This document shows, piece by piece, positions 42,669 to 60,565 of a stretch of 64,000 bases of DNA. The notes under the pieces are model-generated. The model was not told the DNA's origin. It ran no database searches and saw nothing but the letters and a program-made list of their open reading frames with translations. Every line of letters starts with the position of its first letter. Position 1 is the stretch's first letter. The position numbers and the translations under genes were made by a program. Source of the DNA: a bacterium (GTDB lineage Bacteria; Krumholzibacteriota; Krumholzibacteriia; LZORAL124-64-63). The stretch spans positions 1 through 64,000 of the forward strand of contig JAIFKS010000046.1 in the NCBI GenBank assembly GCA_020049465.1, read 5' to 3'.

Positions 42669-45680
<3,012 letters not shown>

Positions 45681-45702
45681 GGGTGCTCCTTGTGAGGTGT
45701 CT

Positions 45703-47955
45703 CTAGTCGCGGGCGGGCGCCGGGCCGCCGATGATGGATTGATAGACGGCGCGATCGATCAGGACCTTTTCGACGTAGTGGCGCGTCTCGGGGTAACCGA
45801 TCCACGCCAGATACACATCGCGTGCGGCGCCGCCCCCCAGCTGGCGGTCCCAGCGGTCGGTCGCCTCGTAGCCGGCGTTGTAGCCGGCAAGCATCCGGTA
45901 CGGGTCGCCGTTGTACCGGCGCGCGCCGTCGCTGAGCAGATGGTCGCCCTTGACGATCGACGTCGGCGCGTTGCTCCAGTGTCCGGCCCCCGGCTGCGCG
46001 CCTCTCCGTTCGTAGTGGAACGGCATGATCTGCATCCAGCCGAGCGCGCCGGCACGTGATCGTGCCGCCGCCTCGAACAGCGATTCGTTGCGCGCGACGG
46101 CCAGCACCAGCGCCGGATCGTTGGCGGCGGCCAGGAGCGCCGCCCGCACCGGGCCGGGACCCGGAAGGGGGTAAAGGAATAACCGCCGCTCGTCCGCTGT
46201 CAAACCGCGCTGTGGAAGGACGGTGGCCGCGGCCAGGATTCCGCGCTGGTCGCCGACGGCCAGGGCGAAGCCGAGCAGGGCATGAATCAACAGGTGGTCG
46301 TCGCCCGCCGCCTTCACCAATTCCGGCACCAGCGAGGGACGGGGCGCGGCGCCGCCGCCGGTCAGGCGGGCGATGTCCGTGTCCAGAACCTGACCGAAAA
46401 GGCGCGGCTCGTCGAGCAGGGGAGCCACCGCCGGCAGCACGCCCGCGTCCGCCGGCGCGGCGCGGTTGCGCACAGCGGCCAGCCTTCCGGCGTAGGCGGT
46501 GGCGCGGGTGCCGGCTCCCGTGGAATCGGCGAATGACCGGCCCCATTTCGCCCAGAGTTCCCACAGCGGCCGGTCGGACGCCGCCGCAAAAGCGGCGCGG
46601 TCCGCGTCCGTCGCGGGACGGACCCGCGGCGACTTTCCGGATTCGACCAGCCAGGCCGCGCGGTCGGGCAATTGCAGCGTGTCCGGCGCTGCGGCGGGCA
46701 GACCCAGCCGCGTTTCCCAATGTCTCGTCTCGGTGATGAAGGACGCGAGTTCCGCCCCGGAGAAGGTCGCCCGGCCCGCGTTGCGCAGGGCGCGCGCCGC
46801 GGAAATTTCGTTGCGGGCGATGGAGCGGACCATCGCCTGTTCCACCCATTGACGCAGCCGCCGGCGGGTCGAGTTGGTGCCGCTGCCATCACGCGCAAGG
46901 GCCAGGGCCTGCTCCAGGGCTGCGCTCGCGCCGACTTCGTCCCCTGCCAGCAGGCGCAGCTCCGCGGCGCGCCGCCACAGGTCCAGGCGCCAGACCGGAC
47001 GCAGCCCCGGCGTGGCCGCGATCTCTTCGTAGGCCGCGGCCCGGCCCTGCTGCGCGGTGCGACGCCCACTGACCCACATGCCCTGCAGGTCGACGTCGTC
47101 GGGCGGCGTCCGGTAGCGCTGGAAATGCGCGGCCAGGTCGTCCTTGGGCAGGACCACGGCGCCTACCGCGGCGCGCCAGGGCTCCGGCAGGCCGGAAGCG
47201 GCCAGGTCCTGCGGTTCCAGCCCGCCGCCGCGGCCGACGCCCGCCAGCCAGGCGCGCCAGGCTTCGGTCGTGGCCGGCGGCGCCAGGGGCGCCTGCCCGC
47301 GCTCGCGGCAGTAGGCCACCCACAGTGCCCAGGCGTTGGCCGCGTCGAACGGCGGCAGCGGCAGGGCTTCGGACCAGATCGTGTTTGTTTCGGCAGGCTG
47401 GCCGCCGCCGAGGCGCGCCACCCTTCGGGCGCGCAGGCTCCACAGGAACGACTCGCGAGGTTCGACGCCGGGAGCTTCGCGCCGGGCCAGGGTTTCGGCC
47501 TCGGACCGCGCGGCAGCCAGGTCGCCCGCCTTAAGAGCGGCGTCGAAGCGCCGGGCGCCCAGTTCGGCTTCGAGGAACGCGAGACCGTCGACGGCCTGCA
47601 GGGCCGCGAAGGTCGCCGACGTGTCGGCGTAGGCCGCGACCGCCCGGCGGGCGGCGGACATCACTTCAGACGGGGCGTCCGTCCGAGCGGTCAGCCAGCG
47701 CGAGGTGAGGTCGATGCCCGTCGGTGCCGGTCGTGCGCCATCCAGCAGGCGCAGCGCCGCTCTCGTCCAGGCCGTGTCCGGCCTCGCAGGTTCCAGCAGT
47801 CCGGCCGGATACCCGTCCATCAGCCCCGCCGAAACGCCGGCGCCGCCGACCTGGAAGCGTTCCAGCCATGGATCATAGAGCGGCCCCGACCGGGCCGCCG
47901 CCGGCACCAGTCCCAGGGCCAGCAACACCACTGCCGACTTTCCCCGCCAGTTCAA
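45703..47955 (-). CDS. Lytic transglycosylase, Slt70-like
   Basis: A 750-residue periplasmic protein. A signal peptide (KSAVVLLALGLVPAAARSG) is followed by a long alpha-helical superhelix region (~40-590) and a C-terminal SLT domain. The catalytic Glu is about E624 in VARNESLFEAAARSRAGAL, followed by GWMQIMP and AGYNAGY. It cleaves peptidoglycan glycan strands to 1,6-anhydro products. The start is TTG 47953-47955, overlapping the protease stop as TTGA, which suggests translational coupling. secA lies 22 bases after its stop. Longer readings run into the protease gene and are rejected. Slt70 itself is ~620 residues, so the helical part is longer here. Confidence 0.82.
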   Translation of the reverse strand: MNWRGKSAVVLLALGLVPAAARSGPLYDPWLERFQVGGAGVSAGLMDGYPAGLLEPARPDTAWTRAALRLLDGARPAPTGIDLTSRWLTARTDAPSEVMSAARRAVAAYADTSATFAALQAVDGLAFLEAELGARRFDAALKAGDLAAARSEAETLARREAPGVEPRESFLWSLRARRVARLGGGQPAETNTIWSEALPLPPFDAANAWALWVAYCRERGQAPLAPPATTEAWRAWLAGVGRGGGLEPQDLAASGLPEPWRAAVGAVVLPKDDLAAHFQRYRTPPDDVDLQGMWVSGRRTAQQGRAAAYEEIAATPGLRPVWRLDLWRRAAELRLLAGDEVGASAALEQALALARDGSGTNSTRRRLRQWVEQAMVRSIARNEISAARALRNAGRATFSGAELASFITETRHWETRLGLPAAAPDTLQLPDRAAWLVESGKSPRVRPATDADRAAFAAASDRPLWELWAKWGRSFADSTGAGTRATAYAGRLAAVRNRAAPADAGVLPAVAPLLDEPRLFGQVLDTDIARLTGGGAAPRPSLVPELVKAAGDDHLLIHALLGFALAVGDQRGILAAATVLPQRGLTADERRLFLYPLPGPGPVRAALLAAANDPALVLAVARNESLFEAAARSRAGALGWMQIMPFHYERRGAQPGAGHWSNAPTSIVKGDHLLSDGARRYNGDPYRMLAGYNAGYEATDRWDRQLGGGAARDVYLAWIGYPETRHYVEKVLIDRAVYQSIIGGPAPARD

Positions 47956-50810
47956 TGTCTCAGCACCACCTTGCGTGTCACCGGCGCGCCGGCGCCGTCG
48001 AGTTTCAGAACATAGGTACCGGAGGGCAGGCGCCGCCCGTCGTCGTCGTTGCCGGTCCATTCGGCGAATTGCATGCCCGGCGGCACGTTACGCGCGTGCA
48101 CGAGGCGCCCGCGCAGATCGAAAATCCGCAACCGCGCCGACGCTCCGTCGGGAATCCGCAACGTGAACCGGAGCACACCGGCCGCCGGATTGGGCCACGG
48201 GTCGCCGAGCGTGTTCGAGCTTTCTGCCGAGTCCGGCGCACTGCCGCCGCCGTCAACGTATAACGTCACCGGCGCGAGCGCGAGGATCCCCCACGGCGAC
48301 GGGCCCGTCACGCGCAATTCGCGCCGTGTTCCGGGCGATTCCGGCCATCGACCGATGATGTCGCCGGCGGCGACGGCGTTCGCGGCCGTTGTCGACAGCG
48401 TGCTCCAGGAACTGTCGGGCAACGTTCGAGCCTGCACCGAGAATGGTTCACTGGACGGTGCGTCGAGGCTCCAGAGCCAGTTCCAGGACAGCCCCGCGTT
48501 CCAGGTGAGATTCTCGTCTTCCATCGCCGTGACCGCGACCGCGCGGCAGTCCGCGATCATCCAGCCGCGACCGCGCCAGAGATCGTTGGCGGCCAATTCC
48601 AGGCGCAGGCGCCACGGTCCGCCTTCCCCGTCCGGGACGGGGATGAGATCCGTGCGCCAGAGCGGCCGGACGCCCTCGCTGAAAGCGGCGGCCGGTTCGC
48701 CGAACGAGCCGCGGCCCCTGAGCGCGCTGGCCGAGGTTGCGTCCACCTGCGCGGGCCAGCCCCTCACAGGCTCGGCCACCGTCTCGGCGCCGTCGGGTCC
48801 GATCCAGCTGGCCACCGCGCCGTCCATGGGAACGCCCCCGGGCAGGGTCTCCACGTCGACCCAATGCACCAGACGCACGCCGCCGACGTCCGGGTCCAGC
48901 GGCCCGCTCGTCAGACGCGCACGCCCGCCGTTCGTGTAGTTCACGGCGGGCCAATCCCCGGCCTCGGCGTTCTCGCCTGTGCAGACGAGTACCGGAAGCT
49001 GATCCGCCGCCGGGGAATCGGCGCCGGTCCACCGTCGCCAGCTGGTACCGGGGCCATCCGGCAGTTCGACGGTCCACTCGCCGGGCCAGATGTTCGCGAA
49101 GTCGAGAGTCGTGGACGTAGACGACCAGCACCAGGGGCGCGCCGCCACCAGGGTCGGCAGACCGGGCCCTGTCAGCGTGCAGCGGAAGGTGGTGCAGGCG
49201 CTCAGCGGGGGCGCGGCGCCCCGGACCCAGGCCGGCGGCGTGATCGGCGTCCAGTGGCCTGCGGAGTCCGGCTCCAGTTCGACATCCACGGCCGTGGCGC
49301 CACCCGCAAAAGCGCCGCCGGGATCGTCGCCGAGCGCTTCAAGACGGACCGAAAGGGACGCGGCAATGCCGCCTTCGACCCGCGCGGTGAACCGGAGTGT
49401 CCACGGCGCCGTCGGCGCGAATGCGAGGTCGAACGTGAGCCACGGCGAGTCGTTGCTGGCTGTGTGATGGACGATGCCGCCGGCGACGGTACCAATGCCC
49501 GTGATCGAAACCCCACTCGACCCGCCGTACCCGTCGCTGGCCGGGTCGGTTTCCGGCGTCCAGGCGCTCACGGCGCCCGGCCCCGGGAACACATCGGCGG
49601 CCGCGCCTGTATCATTCCCCTGGCGCAGATCGCCGTTTCCGTCCGCCTCGACCAGCCGGGTCCGCAGGTGCCATTGCTGGAAACCGTCATCGCTCCAGCC
49701 GCCCTCCGGAACATTCTCGTCGACGTGCAGGATCACCAGGCCGGCGGCCGGCAGCGCGGCATCGAACGGCGCCGCGGCGGCCGGATCGCGCGCTTCGAGA
49801 AGAAAGAACTCGGGCCCGGTCTCGCCGCGCGTCCAGACGCGGTGCGCACGCGCCTCGCCCGGAGCGGACTTCAACGTGTCTCCCGCCGCGGCGCCGGTCG
49901 CGATCGCGACGGTGTCGCACCAGCCCAGCAGCGCGCGCGAGTAGGCGTCCGGCAGGGCCGGGTTCCAGCCGCCGCCGGTGCCCCAGGCGCCGGCCGCCAT
50001 CAGGCTGAAAACGCCCAACCCACCGGAGCCCGCCAGATCGCCGGCGCCGTTCGTCGGCGGCAGGAGCGGGTCGTAGCGATCCTCCAGGCCGAGCAGATGG
50101 GCCGTCTCATGCGCCCAGATACCGGGGCCGCTGGACAGGCTCGCCACGGCGTAGGGACCGGCATTGACGCCGTCACTCACGACCGGAGCCTCGAGGTAGT
50201 ATTGCAGCGCCTGGATCCGTCCCTCCTGCGGGTCGTTCTCCTGCCCCGCCGCCGCATGCAGGATGAGCACGCCGTCGACCCAGCCGTCGTCATCGGCGGT
50301 TCCGGCCAGACCGTCGGGGCCGTCCAGATCGGCCAGACGCAGATCATATCCGGCCGCCGCCACCGCCCCGATCGCCTCGGTCGCCAACCGACGCGTGCGC
50401 GTGAAACCGTTGAGCCCCACGTCCGAGTAGTCGATCGCCGCGCCGGACAGCCGCACCAGCGGCGCCGTGAGGCAGACCACTTCGCAGCGGCCGGCCGAAG
50501 CGACGTCGAAATAGTGCCGCAGCGACTGGCCGTCGGTCGCGGTCAGGCGCGGCGCCAGGCCGGCGGGGTTCCAGTCGGTGGGCAGGCGGTGGTCGGAGAA
50601 ATCCACGGGGATGACGAGCAGGCCGAAGCGGACGGGCGAGGGCGCGTTCTTGTCGGCCACAAGACTGCGCGCACGCAGCGCGGACCTGCGTGCGGCGCGC
50701 CAGGACTGAAGTGTCTCGTCGACCGGCGCGGCGGGCAGGGTCGCCGGGGCCAACCAAGCGAGCGCCGCCAGCAGGCAGAACGAAACGATCCAGCGGGATT
50801 GCGGGCGCAT
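47952..50810 (-). CDS. Secreted M6-type metalloprotease with FlgD/T9SS-like C-terminal domain
   Basis: A 952-residue exported protein. A signal peptide ends near residue 28 (ALAWLAPATLPAAP). The zinc site is H234-E-T-A-H238 in WAHETAHLLGLEDRYD, the M6 (immune inhibitor A) pattern, with SLMAAG downstream. Residues ~450-850 are beta-rich. From ~870 there is a C-terminal module of the FlgD-Ig/T9SS type-A kind (GDPWPNPAAG, RIFDLRGRLVHA, GRRLPSGTYVLKLDG) ending in a basic RKVVLRH. Such ends direct proteins to the cell surface by type IX secretion in Bacteroidetes; here the route is unknown. A TATATT -10 candidate lies at 50880-50885 but its -35 is poor. Confidence 0.8.
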   Translation of the reverse strand: MRPQSRWIVSFCLLAALAWLAPATLPAAPVDETLQSWRAARRSALRARSLVADKNAPSPVRFGLLVIPVDFSDHRLPTDWNPAGLAPRLTATDGQSLRHYFDVASAGRCEVVCLTAPLVRLSGAAIDYSDVGLNGFTRTRRLATEAIGAVAAAGYDLRLADLDGPDGLAGTADDDGWVDGVLILHAAAGQENDPQEGRIQALQYYLEAPVVSDGVNAGPYAVASLSSGPGIWAHETAHLLGLEDRYDPLLPPTNGAGDLAGSGGLGVFSLMAAGAWGTGGGWNPALPDAYSRALLGWCDTVAIATGAAAGDTLKSAPGEARAHRVWTRGETGPEFFLLEARDPAAAAPFDAALPAAGLVILHVDENVPEGGWSDDGFQQWHLRTRLVEADGNGDLRQGNDTGAAADVFPGPGAVSAWTPETDPASDGYGGSSGVSITGIGTVAGGIVHHTASNDSPWLTFDLAFAPTAPWTLRFTARVEGGIAASLSVRLEALGDDPGGAFAGGATAVDVELEPDSAGHWTPITPPAWVRGAAPPLSACTTFRCTLTGPGLPTLVAARPWCWSSTSTTLDFANIWPGEWTVELPDGPGTSWRRWTGADSPAADQLPVLVCTGENAEAGDWPAVNYTNGGRARLTSGPLDPDVGGVRLVHWVDVETLPGGVPMDGAVASWIGPDGAETVAEPVRGWPAQVDATSASALRGRGSFGEPAAAFSEGVRPLWRTDLIPVPDGEGGPWRLRLELAANDLWRGRGWMIADCRAVAVTAMEDENLTWNAGLSWNWLWSLDAPSSEPFSVQARTLPDSSWSTLSTTAANAVAAGDIIGRWPESPGTRRELRVTGPSPWGILALAPVTLYVDGGGSAPDSAESSNTLGDPWPNPAAGVLRFTLRIPDGASARLRIFDLRGRLVHARNVPPGMQFAEWTGNDDDGRRLPSGTYVLKLDGAGAPVTRKVVLRH

Positions 50811-50895
50811 GCGACTCCGGTGGCGGATCCGGCCAGGTCAACGCGGCCGGAACCGGTGGTGCGGTTCCGCCATGACGACAATATACGCCGGAACG

Positions 50896-52418
<1,523 letters not shown>

Positions 52419-52437
<19 letters not shown>

Positions 52438-57472: not shown

Positions 57473-57501
57473 TTGGCGGGTGGCCCGGTACCTGCTATCT
57501 T
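57473..57501 (+). promoter_or_regulatory. Promoter region of the MltD-like gene, sigma70 and sigma54 candidates overlapping
   Basis: TTGGCG (57473-57478), 17 bases and TATCTT (57496-57501) fit a sigma70 promoter. Inside it, TGGCCCG-N4-CTGCT (57481-57496) resembles the sigma54 -24/-12 pattern TGGCACG-N4-TTGC. Only one may be used. The -10 TATCTT is the same as at rpsT. Confidence 0.5.
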
Positions 57502-57590
57502 CCAAAACCCGCTCGAGATGGAACTCAATCCGGGAACCGAGGCGCGCCTTCAAGGTTTGCAGGCGATCCCGACCGGAAGGACAGGCACGG

Positions 57591-59414
57591 ATGAATTTTG
57601 AGAAGTTCCCATTCAGCAAAGGCTTAGCTCATAAGCGGTGCCAAACTGCCCGCTGGCTCCTGGCGGTCACGGCAGCGGTCGGTCTGGGCGCCGGCTGTGC
57701 TGGCGGGGGCTCGCCAGGAATGCGCGAGTCGGGCGACGCCGACGCGATTTTATTCTCCGACAACGCCTTTGCCCGCCGGACAGCATCAGCCGACACAACC
57801 GGGGGCGAAGTGGACGGCGCGATGGGACTGACGGCCGGGCCGGTCGTGGACCTCGAACGCGACGCCGAAGGGCGCGCCGCGCTGGACGCCCTGGAGAAGC
57901 TCAGCCGCACCGCGCTGGCCCTGGCGGCCGAGGGTCGGCTGGATGAGGCTCAGGATCACCTTTTCGTGCTTGAGGACCAGGCATCCCTGGCGGCGCCGGC
58001 CGGGGCCGATTCCCTGTACATCGAACAGCAGCGCAGCCTCCAGCGCCGGGCCGGACTGCTGGGCGCCGTGCTGGCCGAACAGATGGCCTTCTCGGGCGAT
58101 GCTGCCCAGGCCGACTCGCTGCTGGCGGATGGTTACGCACGCCTGGCCCAGAGTTCGTTTCCGGATTCGCTGGTGCCGGCCACGGGCGCCGAATTGTCGC
58201 CCATCACGGTTGACCTGTTGAAGGTCGACAACCTGGAAGTCAACCGCTGGGTCAACTACTTCTCCGGGCGCGGGCGCGACCATTTCCAGGTGTGGCTCGA
58301 GCGCCGCGCGCAGGTCGACTCGATGATCACCGCGATCCTCGACGAGAACGGCCTCCCGCGCGAACTGATCTATCTGGCGATGATCGAGAGCGGGCTCAGT
58401 TCCCGGGCGGTCTCCAACGTGGGTGCGGTCGGCCCCTGGCAGTTCATGGCGCCGACAGGGCGGGCCAACGGCCTGCGGACCGACTGGTGGATCGATGAAC
58501 GACGCGACATGGAAATGTCCACCCGCGCGGCCTGCAAGTACATCCGCACGCTCTACAGGCAGTTCAACGACTGGGCTCTGGTCCTGGCCGCCTACAACAC
58601 CGGCGAAGGCCGTGTCGAGCGCGTGATCAATCAGCACGGGCACGACGACTTCTGGAACCTGCGACTGCCCAGTCAGACCACGGCGCACATTCCGAAGTTC
58701 ATCGCGGCCGCGCGCATCGGGGAAGATCCCGAACGCTACGGATTCGTCGTGCCGGCGGCGCGTCCGCTGCATTACGACCTGTTGCCGGTCGACGACGCGA
58801 CGGATCTGGAAGTCATTGCCAAGTGCGCCGGCGTCGACGTCGCCGAGATCAAGGCGCTGAATCCGGCCCTGATCCGCGGCGTGACGTCACCCGACCGCAA
58901 GAACTACCCGGTGAAGGTGCCCGACGGCAAGGGCGCGACGGCCGTGGTCGCGTTGGCTAAGGTTCCGGCGGACAAGCGCCTGACCTGGAGCAGCCACCGC
59001 GTCGCACGCGGCGAGACGCTCGGGCGCATCGCTTCGAACTACGGGTCGACGGTGAACGACATCGCGCGGTTGAACCGGCTGAACGCGCCGTTCACGATCC
59101 ACCCCGGCGACGAGCTTCTCATCCCCATGCCGGGCGAGCTGAGCGACAAGGCGCGCAAGCGCCTCGAGTCGGCGCCCGCGAAAGGCAAGTCGGGCAAGGC
59201 CAAGAGCGGCGCAGCCAAGAGCAAGGCGCGCTACGAACCGCCCGCGGGCTGGGAACGCGTCAGCTACGATGTGCGCAAAGGCGACACCGTCGGCAGCATT
59301 GCCCAGAAGCTGGGCGTGACGGTCTCGCACCTGCGGACGGTGAATGCGCTGCCGCGCAGCAACCTGATCCGCGCCGGGCAGAAGCTGTTCGCGTACAAGC
59401 CCCCGAAGGGCTGA
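57591..59414 (+). CDS. mltD: Membrane-bound lytic transglycosylase with LysM repeats, MltD-like
   Basis: A 607-residue lipoprotein murein hydrolase. The signal has a lipobox LGAGC with C36 as lipidation site. After an Asp/Ala-rich helical part, the SLT domain at ~245-370 has the catalytic E266 in AMIESGLSSRAVSNVGAVG, followed by WQFMAPTGR and AAYNTGEGRV. One degenerate and two clear LysM peptidoglycan-binding repeats follow (~396-444, 467-512, 557-602), with a Lys/Ser linker between the last two. The start ATG 57591-57593 has GGAAGG ten bases upstream. It is the only protein gene besides rpsT on the plus strand and ends in a bidirectional terminator. Confidence 0.9.
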   Translation: MNFEKFPFSKGLAHKRCQTARWLLAVTAAVGLGAGCAGGGSPGMRESGDADAILFSDNAFARRTASADTTGGEVDGAMGLTAGPVVDLERDAEGRAALDALEKLSRTALALAAEGRLDEAQDHLFVLEDQASLAAPAGADSLYIEQQRSLQRRAGLLGAVLAEQMAFSGDAAQADSLLADGYARLAQSSFPDSLVPATGAELSPITVDLLKVDNLEVNRWVNYFSGRGRDHFQVWLERRAQVDSMITAILDENGLPRELIYLAMIESGLSSRAVSNVGAVGPWQFMAPTGRANGLRTDWWIDERRDMEMSTRAACKYIRTLYRQFNDWALVLAAYNTGEGRVERVINQHGHDDFWNLRLPSQTTAHIPKFIAAARIGEDPERYGFVVPAARPLHYDLLPVDDATDLEVIAKCAGVDVAEIKALNPALIRGVTSPDRKNYPVKVPDGKGATAVVALAKVPADKRLTWSSHRVARGETLGRIASNYGSTVNDIARLNRLNAPFTIHPGDELLIPMPGELSDKARKRLESAPAKGKSGKAKSGAAKSKARYEPPAGWERVSYDVRKGDTVGSIAQKLGVTVSHLRTVNALPRSNLIRAGQKLFAYKPPKG

Positions 59415-59506: not shown

Positions 59507-60565
59507 TCAGAACCTGACCGACAGGCTGATCCGGTGGGTCACTTCGTCGATCTCCAGAGCGTCTCCCGCATACGCATAGTCAATGGTCAGCGGATCGAGC
59601 CGGAAGCCGGCGCCAGCGGCGAAATGACCGGCGTCGAAGCCGCCGTCGAAGCCGGTTCGCACGAAGACCTTCCGCGAGAAGCCCAGTTCCATTCCCGCGT
59701 GGGCGATGGCGCTCATCGAGCCGCTGTGGTACTGGTCCGCGTCGCCGCGGTTGTCGAACCGGGCCTCGAGCGAACCCGCCAGCGTCACGTCCATGTCCCA
59801 GCGCGGCACCGGTTGCCGCCAGGCCAGGCCCGGGACGATGGCCGGCGTGATGATCTCGTTGTGCCCCGTGCTCCAGGAAAGATACGTGGTCGTCACGTCC
59901 TGCAGCTTCAGGCCGAAGTCCAGACGCTTCCAGATCGCGGGCCGCAGCACGGCCAGGTCCGCACCCACGCCCAGGCTCGAGTACGGCCCGATGCTCTGGC
60001 GCACGAACTTCAGCGATCCGCCCACGCGCCAGGCGCCCTTCTGTTCGCCGTACGACAGCAGCAGGCCCAGTTCCTGATCGCTCTTGTAGCGGATCTGGTC
60101 CTGCAGGTCGAACAGGCGCAGCAGTTCGTCGTTGTCGACGGCGCCGTCGTCGTTGACGTCCAGTTCGTCGGTCAGGTGGTTGGTGAACGGGATGTCGTCC
60201 ACGCCCAGCCGGATGAGCGAGACGCCGATGCCCGAACTCTCGCCCCCGAACAGGCGCCAGCCGACGGGCTGCACGTAGGATACGAAGTCGCGGTCGATCA
60301 GGTCCCCGAACTGCTCCGAGTGCATCAGCAGCACTTCGCGGTTGGTGACGCCGGCCAGGCCGGCCGGGTTCCAGAAGGTCGTCGAGGGGTCGTCGGCCAC
60401 GGCCGTGAAGGCCGCGCCCATGCCGAGCGCGCGCGCGCCACCCCCGTTTTCCATGAAGGCGCCGGCGTATTTGTCGGCGTGGGCGGCGCCCGGCAGGGCT
60501 ACGCCCAGCAGCACGGTTGCCAGCAGACTCAGGCGCCGCAACGGGCGCACCGGGTTGACGATCAT
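59507..60565 (-). CDS. PorV/PorQ-family outer-membrane barrel protein with an EF-hand loop
   Basis: A 352-residue exported protein. A signal peptide ends near residue 30 (GVALPGAAHA), followed by GGGARALGMGAAFTAVADDP and WNPAGLAG, the PorV/PorQ (UPF0164-like) N-terminal signature. Alternating beta strands continue to a C-terminal Phe (HRISLSVRF), the usual barrel sorting end. Residues 136-147, DVNDDGAVDNDE, fit an EF-hand calcium loop (D, N, D, G, hydrophobic, D, E at positions 1, 3, 5, 6, 8, 9, 12), probably in an extramembrane loop. PorV in Bacteroidetes is part of type IX secretion; a general FadL-like role is also possible. Promoter at 60631-60658. Confidence 0.8.
   Translation of the reverse strand: MIVNPVRPLRRLSLLATVLLGVALPGAAHADKYAGAFMENGGGARALGMGAAFTAVADDPSTTFWNPAGLAGVTNREVLLMHSEQFGDLIDRDFVSYVQPVGWRLFGGESSGIGVSLIRLGVDDIPFTNHLTDELDVNDDGAVDNDELLRLFDLQDQIRYKSDQELGLLLSYGEQKGAWRVGGSLKFVRQSIGPYSSLGVGADLAVLRPAIWKRLDFGLKLQDVTTTYLSWSTGHNEIITPAIVPGLAWRQPVPRWDMDVTLAGSLEARFDNRGDADQYHSGSMSAIAHAGMELGFSRKVFVRTGFDGGFDAGHFAAGAGFRLDPLTIDYAYAGDALEIDEVTHRISLSVRF

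Follow-up and report, generated by a model that had tools for sequence, protein, structure and literature searches.

A predicted T9SS-exported M6 metalloprotease gene overlaps a lytic transglycosylase gene in a conserved gene block of Krumholzibacteriota

The window, that is, the whole stretch of 64,000 nucleotides that was analysed, carries a gene for an M6-family metalloprotease (47952..50810, minus strand, 952 aa), directly followed by a gene for a Slt70-type lytic transglycosylase (LT; 45703..47955, minus strand, 750 aa). The two genes share four bases, and both proteins start with what looks by eye like a signal peptide. We consider it fairly probable that they form an operon segment which yields a surface M6 protease, exported by the type IX secretion system (T9SS), and a periplasmic housekeeping LT, probably by coupled translation. 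Both proteins are of known kinds and, as a mechanism, the pair is ordinary. The window comes from a genome of 3.9 Mb in 177 contigs.

We found the two enzymes where the preliminary description had placed them, each above the cut-off of its Pfam model. The M6 protein matches PF05547 with 37.7 bits in a Pfam profile search (cut-off 22). It also contains the HExxHxxGxxD zinc motif of the M6 family in the form HETAHLLGLED, at residues 234-244 (50079..50111, minus strand). In an alignment of 30 M6 sequences HExxH is present in 30/30, with D as the third ligand in 28/30 and E in 2/30. The best fold match of the predicted structure is InhA2 of B. anthracis (Z 23.5, rmsd 3.6, 376 aligned).

Next, a jelly-roll module was delimited by fold matches at about residues 565-765 (48516..49118, minus strand), similar to MAM domains and to the cleaved-adhesin domains of gingipains. 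It aligns with promeprin beta 4gwm (Z 13.2, rmsd 2.9, 154 aligned) and with Kgp K1 4itc (Z 11.7, rmsd 3.0, 150 aligned). The model has a mean pLDDT of 75.9 and a pTM of 0.52, and because of the latter the placement of its domains is uncertain. Among the Foldseek matches listed for the M6 protein, InhA2 and PorU are the meaningful ones and the rest resemble general beta-sandwich matches; a PDB sequence search with the protein returned no match at E<=1.

When compared with immune inhibitor A and other M6 proteases (InhA2 4yu5/4yu6), the window protein has the zinc motif and the catalytic fold in common over residues 27-456. It differs in the added gingipain-adhesin-like jelly roll and T9SS tail, and in its score with TIGR03296, a stricter M6 model, which stays at 91.4 bits, under the cut-off of 110.8. 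This model is matched at E<=0.01 by 30/30 of the aligned M6 sequences.

As for the LT, it matches PF01464 with 65.4 bits, above the cut-off of 21.3. Its SLT catalytic domain lies at residues 604-707 (45835..46146, minus strand), and the catalytic Glu624 (46084-46086, minus strand) is invariant in an alignment of 31 sequences. There is no cysteine in the signal region. The best 18 structural matches of the LT are all lytic transglycosylases. The alignment with Slt70 1qte (Z 13.2, rmsd 6.5, 513 aligned) includes a helical superstructure N-terminal to SLT, and since helical repeats can match at Z 13.2 by arrangement alone, the Slt70 assignment is taken from the sequence evidence.

The window LT thus has the C-terminal SLT domain, the catalytic Glu and the helical superstructure in common with the Slt70 family (PF01464; E. 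coli Slt70 1qte, LtgA 5o1j). On the other hand, the murein transglycosylase equivalog NF008631 gives only 34.2 bits, far under its cut-off of 536, and the window LT is distinguished by a start that overlaps a protease gene. The best NCBIfam match is NF047373, the model for the flagellar assembly LT BB0259, over residues 581-739, yet its 73.6 bits are far under the cut-off of 234, and the flagellar reading was set aside for this reason. The window LT also differs from BB0259 in that no flagellar gene is present among its identified neighbours. A second transglycosylase, MltD-like and with SLT and LysM domains, is encoded in the window at 57480-59414 on the plus strand, past the GGDEF end of the gene block described below and opposite to it in strand.

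The stop codon of the M6 gene, TGA (47954-47952), and the start codon of the LT gene, TTG (47955-47953), overlap as TTGA at 47952..47955 on the minus strand, as had been read earlier from the sequence. The longest LT reading frame begins upstream, at ATG 48060, with an N-terminus unlike a signal peptide. TTG was preferred because of the signal-peptide-like N-terminus that follows it and because it agrees with the candidate starts of relatives, which lie at the overlap. Four-base overlaps are common in bacteria, so the overlap in a single genome would be ordinary. A separate promoter for the pair was also considered and rejected: a scan of 45300-51200 for sigma-70 promoters and terminators found none, which is a weak test, as such a scan says little outside model organisms.

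The overlap was followed in relatives, in a sample of 38 genomes of the same family (f1), 33 of which have the junction after M6 in view. G004, G006, G010, G030 and G034 are uncounted, with contigs that end at or inside the pair. LT follows M6 on the same strand in 31/33 visible junctions, and all 31 have a possible overlapping LT start. In 29 of them this start is at -1, giving NTGA with T (15), A (9) or G (5) as the first base, and in the other 2 there is an ATG at -10. Since several relatives have other in-frame starts nearby, the exact LT start in them is inferred.

Genus g11 (G013 and G022) has kept M6, with no LT after it. Neither genome has an LT match at E<=1e-9, and all that was found there is a short SLT gene at about 1e-4. 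G034, where the junction is out of view, is also without an LT match at E<=1e-9. In the sister families LT comes directly after M6 in 2/2 (f2) and 3/3 (f5) visible genomes, G053 being left out of this count with M6 and LT on different contigs. NTGA is possible in 2/5 of these visible junctions. The pairing is therefore conserved in related genomes, and the earlier proposal that the two enzymes are made together is likely to hold, given the conserved adjacency and the overlap.

As a control, we compared ten junctions of the gene block, using loci from 29 of the 38 family genomes. The sequence allows an NTGA start at M6|LT in 24/26, at topA|trmFO in 12/15 and at purC|purH in 10/22 cases; every other block junction allows it in no more than one genome (n from 5 to 25). 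If one takes, for each LT, the start that lies closest to where the window protein begins in the alignment, the exact four-base overlap is found in 18/26 M6|LT junctions. The gap varies at six of the ten junctions; at GGDEF|comEC and purC|purH the overlap is longer and nearly constant, with a few outliers. The NTGA form is unusual within the block and is not unique to the M6-LT pair.

These counts bear on the closest competing explanation, in which M6 and LT are bystanders in a compact operon: they would share a transcript from a stable block, and the overlap would come from genome compaction, with no functional link. We give it slightly less than an even chance. It differs from our preferred explanation only in denying a benefit of joint synthesis, and the confidences in the two are not exclusive. 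The high NTGA count of topA|trmFO fits bystander genes, as we know of no link between the two enzymes, and so does a block order kept across several families of the class. Each of M6 and LT also occurs without the other, and in G022, which has lost LT, the gene that follows M6 has its GTG start placed over the M6 stop. What speaks for more than compaction is that M6|LT keeps the NTGA form in nearly all genomes of the control, despite a changing first base, in a block where most junctions vary.

A gene of 224-226 aa with no Pfam match was observed before secA in two loci (L072:3644-4318 and L099:12823-13503). In L099 it sits after LT. In L072, which has lost LT, this gene begins with a GTG that shares bases with the M6 stop.

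The genes of the block are arranged as GGDEF-comEC-purC-purH-(guaA)-M6-LT-secA-DUF494-topA-trmFO-xerC-like, and several families of the class have kept this arrangement. In the window, purH (50896..52437, minus strand) lies 85 bases upstream of M6 and secA (42669..45680, minus strand) lies 22 bases after the LT stop. Both were assigned by synteny and by profile, purH with NF002049 (558.5 bits over 402) and secA with TIGR00963 (983.9 bits over 800).

Seven LT loci were examined in families f3 and f6. In 5/7 of them purH, LT and secA keep this order and there is no match to M6; of the others, one has LT and secA with purH out of view, and one is on a contig that is too short. Since LT occupies the block locus without M6 in these families, it seems to be the older member of the pair, judging from gene order. 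M6 relatives at E<=1e-18 are present in 50/80 genomes of the class (38 in f1, 2 in f2, 4 in f5 and 6 in f3), and LT relatives at E<=1e-9 in 56/80. In the two f3 M6 loci examined (L079 and L080), LT, purH and secA are not in view.

In fourteen loci (L122 to L135) an M6 relative can be seen together with neighbours from the block, and these named relatives are what suggests placing the window's genome in Krumholzibacteriota. By title, 9 are from Candidatus Krumholzibacteriia or Krumholzibacteriota, 4 from a "bacterium" or "uncultured bacterium" and 1 from Fibrobacter sp. The latter, L132 (isolate IMS_BF), has the gene order of the family and a 40% identical M6, and its Fibrobacter label may be wrong.

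In terms of export, the C-terminal tail of the M6 protein (residues 867-952; 47955..48212, minus strand) was assigned to the T9SS type A C-terminal sorting domains (CTDs) by profile and by fold. It matches TIGR04183 with 27.7 bits, above the cut-off of 23, and its predicted structure, with six main strands, aligns with the PorU CTD 6za2_A (Z 10.0, rmsd 2.3, 84 aligned, in a model of pTM 0.52). The preliminary description had called it a FlgD/T9SS-type module, which agrees with this result; the tail has a sorting-type signature and is not merely FlgD-like. TIGR04183 is matched at E<=0.01 by 23/30 aligned M6 sequences, the window protein included, and does not reach this value in 7/30. One of the 30, L078, is on a contig that ends before any tail. 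The Pfam models Por_Secre_tail (PF18962) and FlgD_ig stay below their cut-offs of 27 on the window tail, with 20.4 and 22.9 bits respectively.

Passages of PMC11285876 name two CTD features, a conserved lysine located in the final strand and a glycine with which the fourth strand begins. Candidates in the window protein are K947 and G901, and among the aligned tails (L078 being tailless) the lysine is present in 23/29 and the glycine in 29/29. These residues are compatible with the two features as worded in those passages. The M6 protein therefore has the tail profile and the CTD fold in common with T9SS type A cargo (TIGR04183; PorU CTD 6za2), and a late lysine and loop glycine compatible with the described motifs. 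Unlike such cargo, it belongs to a host outside Bacteroidota whose GldL/GldM motor genes are not recognised by the models, and its secretion is a prediction.

The tail could instead be an ordinary FlgD-like Ig fold, on a protease that is periplasmic or otherwise released and not T9SS cargo. The similarity to FlgD is real: one FlgD model matches 20/30 aligned M6 sequences, and FlgD chains figure among the top PDB sequence matches of the tail, weak as these are (E 0.21 and above). Furthermore, TIGR04183 is not fully specific, with hits in 2/14 control genomes, one of which exceeds the cut-off, and the motor models find no match in the genome. Against this, TIGR04183 passes its cut-off in the window protein, and the PorU CTD is the only structural match, among the 50 listed, that covers just the CTD. 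FlgD does not appear among these 50 structural matches listed for the M6 model, which is absence from a list and not proof. A genome with this many sorting tails and T9SS components, as detailed below, argues in the same direction. A FlgD-only tail was thus set aside, and we consider it unlikely.

The genome of the window encodes SprA (499.4 bits with the neighbours in frame, cut-off 200) and two full-length PorU (502 and 511 bits, cut-off 420). It also has 10 PorV-family matches, of which 6 are marked over the cut-off, and 109 T9SS-tail matches at E<=0.001. Within the family, SprA matches are present in 38/38 genomes, 34 of them over the cut-off, and C25 peptidases in 38/38. Of the T9SS genes whose search was suggested earlier, SprA and PorU are present, and the GldL and GldM models have no match in the genome. 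The GldM model is silent in all 14 control genomes as well, and none of the control genomes passes the GldL cut-off. It is possible that the motor is different or diverged, or that these models are too narrow.

Two loci of this genome were also noted. A PorV/PorQ-family protein is encoded in the window at 59507-60565 (minus strand; 92.6 bits, cut-off 90); the model nearest to it is PorV2, where it scores 142.2 bits, under the cut-off of 325. Elsewhere (G000:C121:57837-70845, locus L208), a second M6 protein of 1187 aa, with an intact HEFGHALGLVD and a weak T9SS tail, adjoins two full-length PorU genes and a PorV-family gene.

With respect to previous reports, passages of a 2016 survey describe T9SS in Bacteroidetes only (PMC4793230). 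In searches of the open-access literature, Krumholzibacteriota were not found together with type IX secretion, nor was there a paper on an operon of LT and metalloprotease with translational coupling.

Under our preferred explanation, a ribosome that finishes M6 would re-initiate on LT, and both precursors would exit via Sec. M6 would then cross the outer membrane through the T9SS, guided by its CTD, and work at the cell surface or from there, with protein as its probable substrate. The LT would stay in the periplasm and trim or turn over peptidoglycan in a housekeeping role. These destinations are probable because the N-terminus of the LT resembles a signal peptide and the T9SS-tail profiles of Pfam and NCBIfam do not match this protein. 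As for the origin of the pair, M6 may have been inserted in front of an LT that already had its place in a purH-guaA-LT-secA block, its stop later becoming locked to the LT start.

The preliminary description went further and proposed that the pair acts jointly in envelope remodelling, predation or release of material. This is not borne out, with an LT that is probably periplasmic and a protease that is probably outside. A shared obligate function is also unlikely because each gene occurs without the other: other families have LT at this locus but no M6, and genus g11 has M6 but no LT. A looser link is possible, for example wall trimming kept in step with export.

A more specific proposal is that the LT serves type IX export itself, being tied to a cargo protease and opening the sacculus locally for the SprA pathway. 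Dedicated LTs exist in other secretion systems; none dedicated to T9SS is described among the open-access literature matches listed, and we regard such a role as very improbable. Finally, a lytic or predatory device against prey or sibling envelopes is hardly credible: all that suggests it is that one enzyme is a protease and the other a peptidoglycan lyase, whereas the LT has no match to a sorting tail, the identified neighbours are housekeeping genes (purines, secA, topA) with no predation or lysis locus among them, and the pair is nearly constant in the family, unlike an optional weapon.

If the coupling is functional, cell-wall trimming would be linked to the making of a surface protease. 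Together, SprA, the two PorU, the PorV family and the 109 tails make T9SS outside Bacteroidota testable in Krumholzibacteriota, and the pair is useful as a pointer to this system in an undersampled phylum.
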